Below are positions 25,747 to 35,220 of a DNA stretch of 35,220 nucleotides, piece after piece (the stretch's first letter is position 1; every line of letters starts with the position of its first letter). Origin of the DNA: Acidimicrobiia bacterium (GTDB taxonomy: Bacteria > Actinomycetota > Acidimicrobiia > IMCC26256 > JAMXLJ01); the NCBI GenBank assembly GCA_035651955.1, contig DASRES010000078.1, positions 1-35,220 of the forward strand. Direction: 5' to 3'. The notes under the pieces are model-generated. The model saw only the letters and a list, made by a program, of their open reading frames with translations. It did not search any database and was not told where the DNA came from. Both the position numbers and the translations under genes were made by a program.

Positions 25747-26637
25747 ATGGCAGGCGGGAGGTCGTTCGTGTTGCATGCCCACGCTCGTGCCGGACTCGAC
25801 CCGCACCTCCAGGCGGACCTCGATCGCGCCTACTGGGACACTGACGAGCCAGCCGAGGTGATCGCGCGCCGCTTCGAGATCGAGCTCGTCCAGCCGGGCA
25901 AGGGCACGCAGCGGATCCCGGCGAGCACCCGTCTCGCCGAGCACGTCACGCCGATCGAGGCGCCCGGCCGCTGCCCGCGCTGCAGCACGGGTCTCGTCTA
26001 CCGATCCCGCGCCGACCGGCGCGACGACCACCGTAGTTGCGTCCTGTGCGGTCACCGCGATCCCGTCGCGACGTGTCCCTGCCGCGCGTGCGTGGCGGAG
26101 CGCGACGAGCGCGCCGAGGAGCGGTACCGCTACTGGCGCCGTCATCTCTGCCGACCCGAGTTCGCCGCGTTCGCGCTCGACGACCTCGATCGCGACGCGT
26201 CGTCGCTGTACTGGGCGCTGTGCTTCCTCGCCACGCACGACGACGACCCGGTGTCGTGGGAGGACGCACGCGTGGTGTCGGGCGTGCGTGAGCTCGACGC
26301 GCCCATCGAGCGTCTCGTCCGCGCGCACCTGCTGTTCCTCCACGACGGCAGCTTCGAGCTCAACCCGCACGGGCCGAACGCCGTGCGCGGCGCGCGCAAC
26401 GAGGCGGACGCGCTGCGGCCGATCGCGGTCGCCGTGCAGCACGGCCGCGCGTCCGACGACGAGCTCACTCGGTTGCTCGCGTTCGCGGTCCCGGGGTTCA
26501 CCGATGTCGTCGCGCAGCACGACGACCGCGCGCTCGAGGCCGCGCTCGACGACGCCGCGACCCGTCACCCGGAGCTCGTGACGCACGCGGTGCGCGAGGC
26601 GACGCGTCGCTACGTCTCACAACGCCACGCCGCGTAG
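25747..26637 (+). CDS. Hypothetical protein with zinc-ribbon cysteine clusters
   Basis: I do not recognise a family. The 296-residue soluble protein has a short N-terminal region, then a cysteine-rich segment: C76-x2-C79, C98-x2-C101 and C110-x-C112-x2-C115. These suit one zinc ribbon plus a partial second site. After a charged helix (AERDERAEERYRYWRRH), the C-terminal half is mostly helical, with paired acidic and arginine residues and no catalytic motif. The zinc ribbon suggests nucleic-acid or protein binding. The ATG at 25747 was chosen as the first in frame; an internal start before LHAHARAG is possible. It has a distinctive promoter and stands alone, 75 bases upstream of the DUF2630 gene. 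Confidence 0.65.
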   Translation: MAGGRSFVLHAHARAGLDPHLQADLDRAYWDTDEPAEVIARRFEIELVQPGKGTQRIPASTRLAEHVTPIEAPGRCPRCSTGLVYRSRADRRDDHRSCVLCGHRDPVATCPCRACVAERDERAEERYRYWRRHLCRPEFAAFALDDLDRDASSLYWALCFLATHDDDPVSWEDARVVSGVRELDAPIERLVRAHLLFLHDGSFELNPHGPNAVRGARNEADALRPIAVAVQHGRASDDELTRLLAFAVPGFTDVVAQHDDRALEAALDDAATRHPELVTHAVREATRRYVSQRHAA

Positions 26638-26977: not shown

Positions 26978-27628
26978 TCAGACGAGGCGGAACGGACCGC
27001 CCGCCGCGCTCGCGGCGGGGACGCGGTGCGCCGCCGGCGTGAGCGCGGGCGTGACCACCGGCGCGGCCGGAGCGGGGTTCGGCACCAGCACGCCGTGGAT
27101 CACGAGTCGCTCGGTCGCCGATCCCGGCGGATGACAGGTGAACAGCGTGACCTCGTACGCGTCGTGCTGGTCCACGATCCACATCGCGCTCGGCGAGACG
27201 ACCTCGCTGCCTGTGACCCGGTACGTGAACGTCCCCGAGGGCATGACGAACGTGATCGTGTCGCCGGGGTGCAGGTCGCCGAGATGCAGGAACGGCGACC
27301 CGTGGGTGGTGCGGTGCCCGGCGACGACGACGTTGCCGAGCTGGCCCGGCATCGCCGTCCCCGGCCAGTGCGACGGGCCCTTGTCGATCGACAACGCGGT
27401 GACCTGGTCGTAGAGGACCCGGTCCACACCGGCGGCCGGGATCACGATCCGCCCGATCGGGTTGCCGGGCCGGCTCGCGTCGTACGGCGCCGGCGTCGGC
27501 TCCGGGACCGGCAGCGAGACCGCGGACGCGATCCCGGGAGCGACCAGCAAGGTCCCCAGCGCGAGCACGAGGACGCCGAGGATCCGCACCGGCCGCGCGA
27601 CGAAGGCCCCCGTCTTCCTTCCACCCAT
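26978..27628 (-). CDS. Class E sortase
   Basis: This 216-residue transpeptidase has an N-terminal membrane helix (LGVLVLALGTLLVAPGIASA) and a Pro-rich linker. The sortase domain has catalytic His in VVAGHRTTHG, Cys in VTLFTCHPPG and Arg in SATERLVI. The TLxTC signature fits. Class E enzymes of high-GC actinobacteria cut LAxTG-type signals and attach proteins to peptidoglycan. A short Ala/Pro-rich tail follows the domain. No sortase substrate with a complete LAxTG plus hydrophobic tail is visible in the window. The ATG at 27628 starts 7 bases after a GCCGATAC element with no ribosome-binding site, so the mRNA may be leaderless. It is divergent from kinase A. Confidence 0.9.
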   Translation of the reverse strand: MGGRKTGAFVARPVRILGVLVLALGTLLVAPGIASAVSLPVPEPTPAPYDASRPGNPIGRIVIPAAGVDRVLYDQVTALSIDKGPSHWPGTAMPGQLGNVVVAGHRTTHGSPFLHLGDLHPGDTITFVMPSGTFTYRVTGSEVVSPSAMWIVDQHDAYEVTLFTCHPPGSATERLVIHGVLVPNPAPAAPVVTPALTPAAHRVPAASAAGGPFRLV

Positions 27629-27955: not shown

Positions 27956-30229
27956 GTGACGGCGACGGAGGGCGGCTCGCCGACGGTGAACGAGGAAGGC
28001 GCTCGCGCCCTCGGCAGCTCCTACGTCGTCTACGAGCGCATCGGACGTGGTGCGACGGGCGTCGTGCACCGCGCGCTCGACCGGCGCACCGGTGACCCCG
28101 TCGCGGTCAAGTTCCTGCGCTCCGACTTCGCGTCCGACCCGAACGTCGTCGAGCGGTTCCTGCGCGAGCGGGCGATCCTCACCCGCCTCGCCGATCCGCA
28201 CACGGTCGGCCTGCGCGACCTCGTCGTCGAAGGGGAGACGGTCGCGCTCGTCACCGACTTCGTCGACGGCGGTGACCTGCGCGCGCTGCTGAGCCGCGAG
28301 GGTCCGCTGCCCGTCGACGTCGCGGTCGACGTCGCCGCGCAGGTGCTCGACGGGCTCGCGTCGGCCCACGAGCGCGGCGTCGTCCACTGCGATCTCAAGC
28401 CCGAGAACGTCCTCGTCACGCGCGACGGCGACCACCTGGTCGTGCGCGTGACCGACTTCGGGATCGCGACGCTGCTGCGGTCGTCACCCTCGTCGACGAC
28501 GCCGTCGTCGCTCGTGGGCTCGCCCGACTACATGGCTCCCGAGGTCGTCGAGGGACGGGACCTCACACCCGCGGCTGACCTCTACAGCGCGGGGATCCTC
28601 CTCTACGAGCTGCTCTCGGGTCGCACACCGTTCGCGGGTGGTCCCGCGGTCGCGGTGTTGCGTCGCCACGTCGAGGAGCCGCCGTTGCGGTTGCCCGACC
28701 TGCCCGGCGCGGTGTGGAACCAGCTCGTGGCGTTGCTCGCGAAGGACCCGCGCCGGCGTCCGCCGAGCGCCCGCGTCGCGGCGAGCCGCCTGCGCGCGTC
28801 GCTGGACGGCGGAGCGCACGTCGAGGAGATCGACAGCTCGGACGCGCGCGCCGCGTCGGCCGCGCGTGCCGACGCGTACGAGTCCCCGACCTACGTGCCG
28901 CACACACCGCCGCGCGGTGCGACCGCGCACCGCGACGGCACCGATCGTGAACGTCGGGTCTCGACGCGTCGACGTCGCCGCGGCGTCGTGATCGGTGTCG
29001 TCGTGGTCGCGCTCGTCCTCGCCGGCGTCGGCATCGGGGTCGCGACCGAGGTCTCCCGCAGTCGCGCGAGCGCGGCCTCCGACCATGTCCGGTTGACGGC
29101 CCCTCCGATGCTGCAGACGTCGTTCGGTTCCCAGGTCGTCATGGCGCGGAGCTGGGACCTCTCCGGCCACGACGGCAGCCGCGTCGACGTCACGCTGCAC
29201 GTCATGAACGTCGGCTCGAGCCCCGTCGACACCATCGACGAGCTGCCGTTGGAAGGCGGCACGACGCGACGGCTCACGTCGTACACGGTCAAGCTTGCGC
29301 CCGGGCAGTCGACGACGATCTCGTACCACCGCACCGTCACGGCGACCGGCCTCGACGTCCGCCGCATCGAGCAGTGGGAGCAGTCGCTCGACCTCTACGC
29401 GGCGGCGCGGCTCGCCGACGCCGAAGCACGACCCGCCGTCCTCACGCTCGACCGCGATCAGCGCGCATACCTGAACGTCTCGGGCGTCACGACCGCGGGT
29501 GAGGCGGCGAAGGCGCCGCTGCTGGCCGGCCTCTCCTGGTCGTCGTCGGACGGGCACGTCGCGCGTGTCGTGAGTGGCACGCGGGCGGACTCGCGGCCGA
29601 TCGTCCAGGCCGGCTCGCCGGGCGCCGCGGTGCTCACCGCGCGGCTGGGGACGCGCGAGTTGCGTGTCGACGTCGTCGTCGGCTCCGCGCACGCGTCGGC
29701 CGCCGCCGCACGGCTGCCGTGCGAACCGGGGATCGGCGTTCCCGCCGACCTCGTCGACGTGGCGGACGGCGCGGCGTTCACGAGCGACAATCACACGGTC
29801 ACGGTCGTCGCCGGTGGTGCGCGTGTGGCGACGGGGTCGATCGGCGACTTCGCCGCGGGCTCGCCTGTCCCCGCCGACGCCGACTGGCTCGCCACGCTGC
29901 CGGTCTCCCCGCGTGACGGGACGCTGCTGCAGGACGGCCCCGGCGGCCAGCTGTGGCTGGTGGTCGACGGTCAGCGCGTGGCCGTCGGCGCCGGGGACGC
30001 GGCGGCGCTGCACTTCGACCCCGCCCATGCGGTGACGGTCCCGAAGGGCACGATCACCGTGCCCGTGTTCGGCACCGCGCGGTTCCCCGCCGGTGCACTG
30101 GTGCAGCCGGCCGGGTCGGGCACGACGTACGTCTCGGACGGTCATGGTTGGACGACGACGTCCCGAGCGTGTAGCGCGTCAGCCGTGCCCACCGTCCCGG
30201 CGACGACGCAGCTGCTGCCCGCGAGTTGA
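27956..30229 (+). CDS. Ser/Thr protein kinase A with large extracellular region
   Basis: This protein of about 757 residues has a PknB-type kinase domain (about 22-285): glycine loop GRGATGVV, K52 in VAVKFL, catalytic loop HCDLKPEN (H144-C145-D146), DFG at 167 and YMAPE. The HRD arginine is Cys, so it is a non-RD kinase. A basic stretch and a membrane helix (GVVIGVVVVALVLAGVGIG, about 344-364) follow. Outside there is a segment with WDLSGHDG and RRIEQWEQSL that resembles kinase B, then a BIG2-like part (LSWSSSDGHVARVV) and a C-terminal module with VSDGHGWTTTS. The start is uncertain: GTG at 27956 was chosen, with GTGs at 27914 and 27986 as alternatives. The stop overlaps the FHA-LuxR gene, suggesting a signalling pair. 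Confidence 0.87.
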   Translation: MTATEGGSPTVNEEGARALGSSYVVYERIGRGATGVVHRALDRRTGDPVAVKFLRSDFASDPNVVERFLRERAILTRLADPHTVGLRDLVVEGETVALVTDFVDGGDLRALLSREGPLPVDVAVDVAAQVLDGLASAHERGVVHCDLKPENVLVTRDGDHLVVRVTDFGIATLLRSSPSSTTPSSLVGSPDYMAPEVVEGRDLTPAADLYSAGILLYELLSGRTPFAGGPAVAVLRRHVEEPPLRLPDLPGAVWNQLVALLAKDPRRRPPSARVAASRLRASLDGGAHVEEIDSSDARAASAARADAYESPTYVPHTPPRGATAHRDGTDRERRVSTRRRRRGVVIGVVVVALVLAGVGIGVATEVSRSRASAASDHVRLTAPPMLQTSFGSQVVMARSWDLSGHDGSRVDVTLHVMNVGSSPVDTIDELPLEGGTTRRLTSYTVKLAPGQSTTISYHRTVTATGLDVRRIEQWEQSLDLYAAARLADAEARPAVLTLDRDQRAYLNVSGVTTAGEAAKAPLLAGLSWSSSDGHVARVVSGTRADSRPIVQAGSPGAAVLTARLGTRELRVDVVVGSAHASAAAARLPCEPGIGVPADLVDVADGAAFTSDNHTVTVVAGGARVATGSIGDFAAGSPVPADADWLATLPVSPRDGTLLQDGPGGQLWLVVDGQRVAVGAGDAAALHFDPAHAVTVPKGTITVPVFGTARFPAGALVQPAGSGTTYVSDGHGWTTTSRACSASAVPTVPATTQLLPAS

Positions 30230-31104
30230 TGGAACCAGCCGTGCTCGAGGTCAGCGTCGGCGACTTCCACAAGTCGTTCCCGGTGGACGCGCGCGAGATC
30301 GTCATCGGACGGACCGTGAGCGCAGACGTCCAGGTCGACGATCCGCGCGTCTCGCGCGTGCACGCGATCATCCGCCACCGTGGCGAGGTCTGGCAGCTCG
30401 AGGACCAGGACAGCGCGAACGGGACGTTTCTCGACGGCGAGCCGGTGCGCGTCGTCGAGATCTACTCACCCACGATGCTCAGCCTCGCCGATCCCGACGA
30501 GGGGATCTCGATCCTGCTGACGCCCGAGGGGTCGTCCTCACCGGTCGCGGTCGCCGGCGGTGACGTCGACGTCGTGCACATCGGCCGCGCGCCGGACAAC
30601 GACGTCGTCCTCGACGACGCGACGGTCTCGCGTCATCACGCGGAGATCGCGCGCCTGCCGAACGGGCGATGGCAGTTGCGCGACATCGGGAGCGGCAACG
30701 GTGTCGTCGTCGATCGCCGTCGCGTGCGATCGGCCGTCGTGAACGGTCCGTTGCGCGTCGAGATCGGCGACCATCTGTTGCAGCTCGCACCCGACGGCCG
30801 CGGGGGCGTGCGCGTCGAGGTCGTCGCGCGAGGGCGCACCGTGCGGGTGCGCCCGGGCGTCGTGCGCGTCGACATCAGCACCGACGCGCAGGACGAGGAG
30901 GCGATCACCGGCCGCGAGCGTGAGGTGCTCGCGCTGATCGCGGGCGGCGCAACGGACAAGCAGATCGCCGACGCGCTCTACATCAGCATCCGGACGGTGC
31001 GGTCCCACCTCGACCGCATCCACGAGAAGACGGGACTGCGCCGCCGGGCCGACCTGACCCGTCTCGCGTTCCAGCTGGGCATCGCGCCCCGCCGGCCGGA
31101 GTAG
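30229..31104 (+). CDS. FHA-FHA-LuxR transcriptional regulator
   Basis: This 291-residue cytoplasmic protein has two forkhead-associated domains and a C-terminal LuxR/GerE helix-turn-helix. FHA1 (about 5-95) has G27-R28, S42-R43-x-H45 and N64-G65. FHA2 (about 112-190) has HIGRAPDNDVVLDD, VSRHHAEI and GSGNGVVV. The HTH (about 225-287) has TGREREVLALIAGGATDKQI, then SIRTVRSHLDRIHEKTGL. FHA domains read phosphothreonine, so the protein could couple kinase signals to transcription. There is no phosphorylation-receiver domain. The ATG shares one base with the kinase A stop (TGATG), which implies coupled translation. It is followed by a strong hairpin. A paralogue begins at 34687. Confidence 0.9.
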   Translation: MEPAVLEVSVGDFHKSFPVDAREIVIGRTVSADVQVDDPRVSRVHAIIRHRGEVWQLEDQDSANGTFLDGEPVRVVEIYSPTMLSLADPDEGISILLTPEGSSSPVAVAGGDVDVVHIGRAPDNDVVLDDATVSRHHAEIARLPNGRWQLRDIGSGNGVVVDRRRVRSAVVNGPLRVEIGDHLLQLAPDGRGGVRVEVVARGRTVRVRPGVVRVDISTDAQDEEAITGREREVLALIAGGATDKQIADALYISIRTVRSHLDRIHEKTGLRRRADLTRLAFQLGIAPRRPE

Positions 31105-31110
31105 CAAGAA

Positions 31111-31144
31111 GGCGGGGTACCGGCTGCATCGCCGATACCCCGCC
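31111..31144 (+). terminator. Hairpin after the FHA-FHA-LuxR gene
   Basis: GGCGGGGTA (31111-31119) pairs with TACCCCGCC (31136-31144), and CGG/CCG adds to the stem inside. It starts 6 bases after the stop codon. No T-run follows, as often in GC-rich actinobacteria. Confidence 0.6.
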
Positions 31145-31145
31145 T

Positions 31146-31180
31146 ACTCGGAACCCTGCCCCAGTTGGTTCCCTTCGAGT
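31146..31180. other. Second intergenic hairpin
   Basis: ACTC plus GGAACC (31146-31155) pairs with GGTTCC (31167-31172) and GAGT (31177-31180), with a 4-base CTTC bulge. It lies directly next to the preceding terminator-like stem, which makes a double-hairpin structure. Function unknown. Confidence 0.4.
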
Positions 31181-31257
31181 ATGCGGGCGCGGGTGGCTCC
31201 GCTCCAGAGGTAGGAGTGCCCATCTCGCGAGCCGTCGCTCACGATCCGTCGTCCGGT

Positions 31258-31292
31258 CCGGCCCGCACGACAGCGCGGTGTGACCGGGCCGG
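31258..31292 (-). terminator. Hairpin after the kinase B gene
   Basis: CCGGCCCG (31258-31265) pairs with CGGGCCGG (31285-31292). On the minus strand it starts 2 bases after the TAG stop of kinase B. Confidence 0.5.
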
Positions 31293-31294
31293 GG

Positions 31295-33202
<1,908 letters not shown>

Positions 33203-33343
33203 CCTTCCCCTCTCTTCACCCGGTGGAGACACGAGCGTACCGACCCGGCCGCCCCTGTGGGCGCTCAACTTCTCGCGGTGGTCCTGGTGGCCGATCCGTC
33301 GGCACCCCTGCAAGAATTGGGGGCCGCCCGAGGAGGACCTCGC

Positions 33344-34546
33344 ATGACCGCGACGATCGAACCGCACCCCGAGCTGTTCCTCCCGGAACCGGAGCCGCGT
33401 GAGGTGAAGTACACGGTCATCTCCGTGGACGACCACCTCGTCGAGCCGCCCGACATGTTCGAGGGGCGGCTTCCCGCCGCGCTGCAGGAGCTGGCCCCCC
33501 GCATCGTCGAGACCAAGCACGGTCACCAGGTGTGGGAGTTCGACGGCGGGCGCTACACGCAGGTCGGGATGAACGCGGTCGCCGGGCGGCGGCCCGACAC
33601 CGTTCGGGTCGAGCCGTTCCGGTTCGACCAGATGCGCCGGGGCTGCTTCGACATCCACGCGCGGGTTCACGACATGGACGTCAACGGCGTGTGGGCCTCG
33701 CTCAACTTCCCGTCGATGATCACGGGGTTCTGCGGGCGCGTGTTCTCGCAGTGCTCGGATCCCGAGCTGGGGCTCGCCGTCACGAGGGCCTGGAACGACT
33801 GGCTCCACGAGGAGTGGTGGCAGCCCTATCCGGACCGGATCATCCCGCTCGGCATCACGTTCCTCACCGATCCCGAGCTCGGCGCGCAGGAGATCCGCCG
33901 CAACGCCGAGCGCGGGTTCCGTTCCGTCACGCTGCCCGAGCGTCCGCAGAACATCGACCTGCCGTCGATCTTCGACGACTACTGGGACCCCATCATCCGG
34001 GCCTGCGCGGACACCGACACCGTGATCTCGCTGCACGTCGGCTCTTCGGGGATGTACCCGATGCCGCCCGGTGCGCCGGCGATCCAGCTGGGCTCGACGA
34101 TGTTCGGGCAGATGTCCCTGAGCGCGTGCGCGGAGTGGCTCTGGTCCGGCTACGCGGTCCGCTACCCGAACCTGAAGATCGCGATGTCCGAGGGTGGCGT
34201 CGGCTGGGTCGCGATGCTGATCGACCGCCTCGACAACATCGTCGACCGCTCGGGCTACGGGCTCGACGGCTTCGGGGGCCAGCGCCCGGCCGACGTGCTG
34301 CGCCGGAACTTCTGTTTCTGCACGATCGACGACCCGTCGACCATCTGCACCCGCCACACGATCGGCGTCGACCACATCATGGTGGAGGTCGACTACCCGC
34401 ACGGCGACGGCACCTGGCCCGACACGCAGGCCGTCATCGAGCGGTACTGGGGCGACCTCCCCAACGTCGAGCTGCGCAAGATGTGCTGCGAGAACGCGGC
34501 CGCCCTCTACCGCCACCCCTTGCCGGAGCGCGTCCTCCCCGCCTAG
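33344..34546 (+). CDS. Amidohydrolase family 2 protein
   Basis: This 400-residue metal-dependent TIM-barrel hydrolase or decarboxylase belongs to the amidohydrolase-related family. The N-terminal metal motif is VDDHLVEPPDMF, the form common in this branch in place of HxH. Other conserved stretches are GVWASLNFPSM, ARAWNDWLHEEW-like TRAWNDWLHEEW, LHVGSSGM (metal histidine) and MVEVDYPHGDGTWP near the C-terminus. Actinobacteria have many such proteins of unknown substrate. A strong AGGAGGA ribosome-binding site lies six bases before the ATG. It sits between the kinase B and second FHA genes without an obvious functional link to them. A hairpin follows. Confidence 0.88.
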   Translation: MTATIEPHPELFLPEPEPREVKYTVISVDDHLVEPPDMFEGRLPAALQELAPRIVETKHGHQVWEFDGGRYTQVGMNAVAGRRPDTVRVEPFRFDQMRRGCFDIHARVHDMDVNGVWASLNFPSMITGFCGRVFSQCSDPELGLAVTRAWNDWLHEEWWQPYPDRIIPLGITFLTDPELGAQEIRRNAERGFRSVTLPERPQNIDLPSIFDDYWDPIIRACADTDTVISLHVGSSGMYPMPPGAPAIQLGSTMFGQMSLSACAEWLWSGYAVRYPNLKIAMSEGGVGWVAMLIDRLDNIVDRSGYGLDGFGGQRPADVLRRNFCFCTIDDPSTICTRHTIGVDHIMVEVDYPHGDGTWPDTQAVIERYWGDLPNVELRKMCCENAAALYRHPLPERVLPA

Positions 34547-34556
34547 CTCGTTCCGT

Positions 34557-34591
34557 GAAGCGTGACGGCAACATGCTTGCCGTTCCGCTTC
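34557..34591 (+). terminator. Hairpin after the amidohydrolase gene
   Basis: GAAGCG and ACGGCAA (34557-34571) pair with TTGCCGT and CGCTTC (34577-34591), interrupted by a 2x2 mismatch, with a 5-base loop. It starts 10 bases after the stop codon. No T-run follows. Confidence 0.6.
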
Positions 34592-34686
34592 CCAAAAGGG
34601 TGCGGACAGCTTCCACTTTTCACGCGTCGTGGCGCGCGCCATGATGCTGCGCCGCACCGGGGCGGTGTGGCAGGGGCAGAGGGCGG

Positions 34687-35220
34687 ATGACGGCACCGCC
34701 GGTGGAGATCAAGGTTGGGGACACGCACGCGACGTTCGCGGAGGACGTCGCGACGGTCGTGATCGGGCGGTCCGCCTCGGCCGACGTGCGCGTCGACGAT
34801 CCGCGCGTGTCGCGCGTGCATGCAGTCCTCAGCCGGAACGGTGAGGGCTGGGTGATCGAGGACCGTCACAGCGCGAACGGCACGTTCGTGCTCGGCGCAA
34901 GCGTCGAGCGTCTCGTGATCGACGGCCCGACGGTCATCCGGCTCGCGGATCCGGACGACGGGATCCCGCTGCTCGTCACCCCGGGCGGGGCGGTGACCAC
35001 CGCGGTCGTCTCGCGACGCTACGGGACGAGCAGAGTGCGCATCGGGCGCGCGACGGACAACGACGTCGTCGTGGACGACCCGCACGTCTCGCGCTACCAC
35101 GCCGAGCTCCGCCGCGAGGACGGTGCCTGGCTGCTCTGCGACCTGAACACCGCGAACGGCACCATCGTCGACGGCCGTCGCGTCACCGCGGATGTCGTGA
35201 GCGATGCGATCCACGTCGAG
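34687..35220 (+). CDS. FHA-FHA protein, paralogue of the LuxR-fused regulator (partial)
   Basis: The frame is open from the ATG at 34687 to the right edge, giving 178 residues without a C-terminus. FHA1 has VVIGRSASADVRVDDPRVSR and FHA2 has RIGRATDNDVVVDDPHVSRY. The first 45 residues align without a gap with the protein at 30229, including G27-R28, S42-R43 and H45. The inter-domain segment LADPDDGIPLLVTPGG is also shared (LADPDEGISILLTPEG there). The missing part may be another LuxR HTH. An ABC-transporter module, as in Rv1747-type proteins, is the alternative. GGGGCAGAGGG lies upstream of the ATG. It would read phosphothreonine marks, possibly from kinase B. Confidence 0.88.
   Translation, partial: MTAPPVEIKVGDTHATFAEDVATVVIGRSASADVRVDDPRVSRVHAVLSRNGEGWVIEDRHSANGTFVLGASVERLVIDGPTVIRLADPDDGIPLLVTPGGAVTTAVVSRRYGTSRVRIGRATDNDVVVDDPHVSRYHAELRREDGAWLLCDLNTANGTIVDGRRVTADVVSDAIHVE

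Follow-up and report, generated by a model that had tools for sequence, protein, structure and literature searches.

The window, which is the whole stretch of DNA analyzed here, corresponds to the entire contig C78 (35,220 bp), so the second of its two FHA-FHA genes is truncated by the assembly. Kinase A (27956..30229, plus strand; alternative start GTG at 27986) is a Hanks-type Ser/Thr kinase with a juxtamembrane linker, one predicted transmembrane helix (28982..29044, plus strand), and an extracellular region. Its stop codon TGA (30227-30229) has one base in common with the ATG (30229-30231) of Reg1 (30229..31104, plus strand), a regulator with FHA-FHA-LuxR architecture and a NarL-type HTH, which bears out the one-base overlap given in the preliminary description. 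Kinase B (31295..33232, minus strand; start GTG at 33232 or 33202) has a predicted transmembrane helix (32150..32212, minus strand), an ectodomain, and a Thr-rich tail. An amidohydrolase-2 gene (33344..34546, plus strand; PF04909, 1.6e-21) lies between the two kinase/regulator pairs, with no evidence tying it to the kinase/regulator system, and is followed by the FHA-FHA part of Reg2 (34687..35220, plus strand), ended by the contig edge. Third-position GC is of coding type in all four kinase and regulator genes (0.91 to 0.93; 0.91 in kinase A). The two Ser/Thr kinases, the FHA domains, and the DNA-binding domain named in that description are real (Pkinase at 8.4e-52 for A and 3.3e-50 for B; four FHA domains; a GerE HTH in Reg1 at 50.4 bits against a cutoff of 23.5). 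Its picture of a duplicated locus stands for the kinases and FHA genes themselves, with two corrections: kinase B runs on the minus strand and converges on Reg1, and the amidohydrolase gene lies between it and the second FHA gene.

Reg1 is 291 amino acids long and stops after the HTH (structure model with a pLDDT of 87.7). FHA matches cover two stretches (5.7e-35), FHA1 (30286..30522, plus strand; GR, SRVH, and NGT present) and FHA2 (30565..30795, plus strand; GR, SRHH, and NGV present), and are followed by the LuxR/NarL-type HTH (30895..31089, plus strand; GerE, 1.7e-13). The phosphothreonine-binding motifs GR, SxxH, and NG occur in all four FHA domains of Reg1 and Reg2, with V instead of T as the last residue in Reg1 FHA2, which makes the four domains candidate phosphothreonine readers. 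We found no match to a REC domain in Reg1, and the FHA-FHA part occupies its place. FHA1 groups with FHA1 of FHA-FHA-ABC proteins (97/91), the HTH of Reg1 and Reg2 falls in a clade with REC-HTH regulators from the order and phylum (100/99), and FHA2 is placed in its tree without clear nearest relatives. Reg1 therefore looks like a chimera, with an FHA1 resembling that of Rv1747-type FHA-FHA-ABC transporters and an HTH akin to that of REC-HTH response regulators; the separate nearest relatives of FHA1 and HTH count in favor of the kinase/regulator module proposed below.

The continuation of Reg2 into a LuxR HTH was located on contig C18 (L029, 17602-17940, minus strand). Reversed, C18 opens with a 4-nt overlap (CGAG) to C78 and the reading frame is maintained. 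We infer the join from frame and paralogy, as a 4-nt overlap by itself proves nothing. The joined Reg2 would be a 291-aa paralog with 56% identity to Reg1, the HTH being 85% identical and every key motif kept in both. Thr98 (in a TP after FHA1) and one Thr of the HTH linker are also conserved in the two regulators. The next gene on C18 codes for kinase C (Pkinase, 8e-52), which converges on Reg2 and has a similar type of ectodomain, so that the original observation is confirmed and reaches beyond the window.

The three kinases are Hanks-type (PknB-like), with the Pkinase fold and the VAIK Lys, HxD, DFG, and APE elements. HRD, DFG, and APE are all intact in kinase B; the catalytic loop of kinase A reads HCD (CAC TGC GAT; 28385..28393, plus strand) instead of HRD, yet keeps the catalytic Asp. 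They form one clade (96/94) in which B and C are sisters (99/98). The PknB/Stk1 PASTA kinase model NF033483 gave 249 to 263 bits, mainly over the kinase part, against the 450 needed, and no PASTA repeats were matched. The membrane-proximal ectodomain of kinase B (31703..32122, minus strand) is modeled as a beta sandwich with a C-terminal helix (pLDDT of 91) and has family members in 9 of the 395 class genomes. Its sequence has no Pfam, NCBIfam, or PDB match, Foldseek returned nothing for the model at E <= 0.001, and the best hit of a second structural comparison (Z of 6.1) is no better than unrelated beta sandwiches can give, so the domain is assigned to no known fold. Kinase A has a short, divergent copy (29081..29434, plus strand), matched at 9.7e-27 by a profile built with the kinase A sequence among its members. 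A T-x-P-R motif is common to the juxtamembrane linkers of all three kinases; since a common pattern containing T appeared in 5% of shuffles, it is a weak hint of a docking motif. Genome-wide, there are 11 Pkinase matches and one PP2C phosphatase gene.

The preliminary description proposed that kinase and regulator are partners and that their adjacency should be conserved, and here the outcome was mixed. The exact FHA-FHA-LuxR architecture was found in no other protein of the 395 class and 396 phylum genomes sampled (ca. 790), and the same-genus genome does not have it either. Single-FHA/LuxR genes, on the other hand, occur in 50 of the 121 Conexibacter family genomes and had a Ser/Thr kinase within 1 kb at 17 of 20 loci, versus 1 of 20 control windows (Fisher, 4e-7). 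Across 40 loci (L236-L255 and L276-L295), 29 had a kinase (24 convergent, i.e., tail to tail, 3 divergent, and 2 codirectional), with a predicted transmembrane segment in 25 of the 29. One contig scan of genomes used FHA1-derived patterns only and could not detect most FHA-LuxR proteins; its useful result was the Conexibacter locus L089. The Conexibacter family regulators resemble Reg1 and Reg2 in having an adjacent membrane Ser/Thr kinase, mostly convergent, but differ in carrying one FHA domain and a GerE-like HTH of variant type that contains an insertion, and their kinases have other ectodomains, with propeller-like DUF6923/SGL matches. Identity to the Reg1/Reg2 type is 30 to 35% from FHA2 to the HTH (best E of 2e-13), compatible with a common origin as well as with a parallel fusion, and, as they carry only one FHA, these pairs may be a parallel invention. 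Recurrence of a related pairing in a distant bacterial group looks like the mark of a real, little-noticed signaling module.

Both Reg1/kinase B and Reg2/kinase C have the adjacent kinase and the convergent layout usual in the Conexibacter family, and together with the recurrence of adjacent pairs in that family this gives the partnership of kinase and regulator good genomic support. The overlap with Reg1 does not clearly make kinase A its main partner, because it is kinase B that has the position of partner kinases at other loci, and A has HCD and a shortened ectodomain. That A, B, and C form a clade with B and C as sisters, each of these convergent with a regulator, is as expected if a kinase/regulator pair was duplicated together.

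Gene order, intact domains with their key residues, paralogy, and the recurrence of kinase/FHA-LuxR pairs elsewhere are the observations behind our preferred reading: we consider it probable, with some reserve, that the locus is an expanded kinase/FHA-regulator module that uses Ser/Thr phosphorylation for the task of a two-component system. The membrane kinases (B, C, and the diverged A as a third) would detect an outside signal with their membrane-proximal beta-sandwich domain and then phosphorylate themselves on threonines. Through their paired FHA domains, Reg1 and Reg2 would dock on these phosphothreonines, and possibly also on threonines phosphorylated by the kinase on the regulator, altering regulator assembly and thus DNA binding by the NarL-type HTH. 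A signal and a set of target genes are presumed at the two ends of the chain, and the single PP2C phosphatase of the genome would reset the switch. We infer phosphotransfer and control of DNA by Reg1 and Reg2 from these features. Against the module count the lack of a second sampled genome with FHA-FHA-LuxR, the 11 Pkinase matches, each a possible source of input to the regulators, and the HCD of kinase A.

Several known systems share parts of this design. One is the two-gene operon PknF-Rv1747 of M. tuberculosis (PMC3908365), in which a kinase gene lies directly upstream of a double-FHA effector, of a protein type whose FHA1 groups with that of Reg1 and Reg2. There the effector is an FHA-FHA-ABC transporter, whereas Reg1 has the two N-terminal FHA domains, no ABC ATPase or membrane domain, and a DNA-binding HTH, and a second kinase faces the regulator. 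In PknH-EmbR, also of M. tuberculosis (PMC4601284), a membrane Ser/Thr kinase likewise acts on an FHA-containing transcription factor. EmbR, however, is a SARP-type protein with a winged helix, BTA, and one C-terminal FHA, while Reg1 has no Trans_reg_C winged helix or BTA domain in Pfam, and its match to EmbR is confined to the FHA. The mycobacterial ESX-1 regulator EspM (PMC7002343) has an N-terminal FHA and a C-terminal HTH, but a different HTH region, one FHA by description, and only partial NCBIfam similarity. By architecture alone, FHA plus LuxR_C-like HTH proteins of Nocardia farcinica, Rhodococcus opacus, and R. jostii RHA1 are similar; the passages on them in Santos et al. 2012 (PMC3466318) describe one fusion in the Rhodococcus/Nocardia ancestor and record FHA plus LuxR with no mention there of a second FHA or kinase adjacency. 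NarL-type response regulators working with histidine kinases share the HTH clade of Reg1 and Reg2, which differ in having FHA-FHA in place of REC.

What is known of the routes from bacterial Ser/Thr kinases to transcription comes mostly from promiscuous kinases whose substrates are scattered. A recurring one-to-one pair of membrane kinase and FHA-HTH regulator would be a clean system for studying insulation and specificity of phosphothreonine signaling, as tested for histidine kinases. More tentatively, and at somewhat less than even odds, kinase/FHA-LuxR pairs could be, in deep-branching Actinomycetota, a general and largely unrecognized equivalent of two-component systems built on Ser/Thr phosphorylation, with FHA in the place of REC, each regulator beside its own membrane kinase, and about a dozen FHA-LuxR copies in some genomes; we found no paper in the open-access literature that names such a pair. 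The window would then hold the double-FHA version, which has the look of a natural exchange of domains in a NarL-type regulator, with FHA-FHA taking the place of REC, and suggests how one signaling chemistry takes over the output domain of another.

The best-surviving alternative, which we regard as unlikely, is that the regulators read phosphothreonine from the general kinase network (e.g., the PASTA-type kinase on contig C69) while A, B, and C phosphorylate different targets, neighboring position reflecting shared regulation or general clustering of FHA and kinase genes. FHA genes do cluster with kinases in this genome (4 of 5 FHA loci are within 5 kb of one; expected rate, 2.9%), a finding that counts for the preferred reading too, and EmbR is phosphorylated by several kinases (PMC4601284). 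Against this alternative stand the one-to-one pairs of the Conexibacter family, most of them tail to tail, and the fact that Reg1/kinase B and Reg2/kinase C look duplicated in step. GarA/OdhI and the Rv1747 condensates are models for oligomerization or autoinhibition set by FHA domains, and it is conceivable, if rather improbable, that the double-FHA part acts mainly within or between regulators, binding regulator phosphothreonine or an unphosphorylated surface, with kinase docking secondary. The conserved Thr98 and HTH-linker Thr would suit this, as would the phosphorylation-dependent condensates of the Rv1747 FHA part (PMC9312465), but the FHA1-FHA2 linker is short, whereas that of Rv1747 is described as long and disordered. 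Very unlikely, in our view, is that the set arose by a recent rearrangement in this lineage and has hardly any function, as a chance fusion that lasted only briefly. The absence from sampled relatives and the HCD of kinase A would fit this, but against it stand regulators that are 56% identical yet keep all key motifs and an 85% identical HTH, coding-type GC3, and the retention of three kinases.

A defense system was also considered and rejected, as the PADLOC matches are generic kinase domain matches to PD-T4-6, MAD6, and the like, and no other defense gene was present among the proteins tested. In a plasmid search, no record had a single place covering 80% of Reg1; two Rhodococcus/Streptomyces plasmid loci, without annotation, were seen.

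The window takes up contig C78 (35220 bp) in full; the high-GC genome it belongs to measures 4.1 Mb in 92 contigs and is 96% complete. Kinase A (27956-30229, forward strand) consists of a Pkinase domain, a linker, one transmembrane (TM) helix, and an extracellular region, and is followed by Reg1 (30229-31104, forward strand), in which two FHA domains and a short linker precede a LuxR/NarL helix-turn-helix (HTH). Kinase B (31295-33232, reverse strand) is convergent with Reg1, and after it come an amidohydrolase gene and a second FHA-FHA gene, the start of Reg2, which is open at the contig end (35220). Third-position GC is of the coding type in all of these genes (0.91 to 0.96). The two TM kinases, the two double-FHA genes, and the one-base overlap reported in the preliminary description were confirmed, the former by their Pkinase, TM, FHA, and HTH domains and the latter by the base common to the kinase A stop (TGA) and the Reg1 start (ATG). 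A sortase gene (26978-27628) is divergent from kinase A, and a 296-amino-acid open reading frame (25747-26637) had no Pfam match at E ≤ 0.01.

Searching the same genome with Reg1, we found a match to residues 178 to 290 at the end of another contig, C18, which picks up exactly where the cut FHA-FHA gene breaks off. The reversed C18 has CGAG in common with the end of C78, with the frame preserved across the join. We infer that the two contigs adjoin and encode a full-length Reg2 of 291 amino acids, ending in a LuxR HTH and 56% identical to Reg1. The next gene on C18 codes for kinase C, which is convergent with Reg2 and has an ectodomain resembling that of kinase B; the combined order would be KinA and Reg1 (forward), KinB (reverse), amidohydrolase and Reg2 (forward), and KinC (reverse).

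The Reg1 locus is a variant on already known kinase/FHA-effector systems. PknH phosphorylates EmbR, the activator of embCAB, through the FHA domain of EmbR (PMC4601284). The FHA-FHA-ABC exporter Rv1747 shares an operon with pknF and, in yeast two-hybrid assays, requires both FHA domains to interact with the kinase (PMC3908365). A 2012 count places FHA-plus-LuxR proteins in Nocardia and Rhodococcus (PMC3466318). In the open-access literature we found no description of FHA-FHA-LuxR proteins or of a kinase/FHA-LuxR gene pair.

The preliminary description proposed checking genomes for conserved adjacency of kinase and FHA-FHA-LuxR genes; such adjacency was seen only for a related architecture. In 395 class genomes and 396 phylum genomes, profile searches revealed no further protein joining FHA-FHA to a Reg1-type HTH, the matches being FHA-FHA-ABC, solo FHA-FHA, or REC-HTH proteins; the profile was built from just two sequences and scoring went no deeper than the six top candidates of each genome, so these searches may have passed over rare, diverged members. 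Two class genomes (loci L136 and L138) code for stand-alone FHA-FHA proteins a few kilobases from FHA-FHA-ABC transporter genes. In contrast, proteins with a single FHA and a LuxR-like domain occur in 50 of 121 Conexibacter-family genomes, with up to 12 copies per genome, and their recurrent pairing with kinases is a more interesting result than the window locus. Two such proteins lie on one Conexibacter contig (L089), and the one checked against Pfam had both FHA and GerE above the cut-off. A Ser/Thr kinase was found within 1 kb in 17/20 loci (L236-L255, flanks of ~7 kb on each side) versus 1/20 control windows from the same genomes (Fisher, 4e-7, a value that overstates independence because all loci come from a single family and some genomes, such as L248 and L288, are near-duplicates). 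With 20 extra loci (L276-L295, flanks of ~4 kb), the count was 29/40, and most of the 11 loci lacking a kinase reach the contig end within ~1.7 kb downstream of the regulator. The pairs are mostly convergent, tail to tail (24, with 3 divergent and 2 co-directional), and in 25 of the 29 kinases a TM segment is predicted C-terminal to the kinase domain. One sampled regulator (L255) did not match GerE at E ≤ 0.001, and another (L237) scored just below the GerE cut-off. Gene neighborhood makes a kinase/regulator partnership rather likely, and the direct route from outside signal to transcription proposed in the preliminary description would be its putative mechanism.

Kinases B and C retain HRD, DFG, and APE. 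Kinase A alone among the kinase sequences examined from this genome has HCD instead of HRD in the catalytic loop (28385-28393), and it also reads GSP where GTP is expected (GSPDYMAPE), so its activity is uncertain; it may be regulated differently or weakly active. All four FHA domains contain GR, SxxH, and NG, and in the Reg1 AlphaFold model the FHA and HTH domains are predicted with confidence and residues 212 to 223 form a loose linker.

In the trees, the three kinases form one clade (96/94) with B and C as sisters (99/98), and the FHA1 domains of Reg1 and Reg2 cluster with those of FHA-FHA-ABC proteins (97/91), while FHA2 has no supported placement. The regulator HTH falls in a 100/99 clade, from an alignment of only 66 columns, with REC-HTH response regulators of the same order and phylum; histidine kinase-like genes lie next to several of them. 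Within the genome, every LuxR-type HTH other than that of Reg2 is at most 43% identical to that of Reg1. The simplest reading of these sequences would be a chimera in which the receiver was swapped for FHA-FHA, any order of events being one that we infer. In the genome of the same genus, an FHA protein with a multi-TM region, PrsW-like by eye (L063, 5331-6695), is followed downstream by two genes resembling sensor kinases and by the response regulator with an HTH 57% identical to the Reg1 HTH.

Across the genome of the window, Pkinase gave 11 matches and FHA gave 9, with a kinase within 5 kb of 4/5 FHA loci; the one PP2C gene found is within a cluster on contig C69. On contig C13, an FHA-cyclase faces a kinase (L033, 2044-7114), and in a relative (G020) an FHA-cyclase gene is directly upstream of a kinase with an ectodomain of the A/B/C type (L197, 10344-14926), both cyclases being named class III-like by eye from sequence. 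FHA looks like a reusable adaptor linking kinases to various outputs.

The membrane-proximal ectodomain of kinases A, B, and C has no clear match among solved structures, and its model shows, with confidence, a beta sandwich followed by a helix at the C terminus. It is present in 9 of the 395 class genomes, on other kinases in G015 and G020, and beside a kinase-like C terminus in G024; in G023, at least one TM protein that lacks a kinase domain carries it (L134, 2331-4007).
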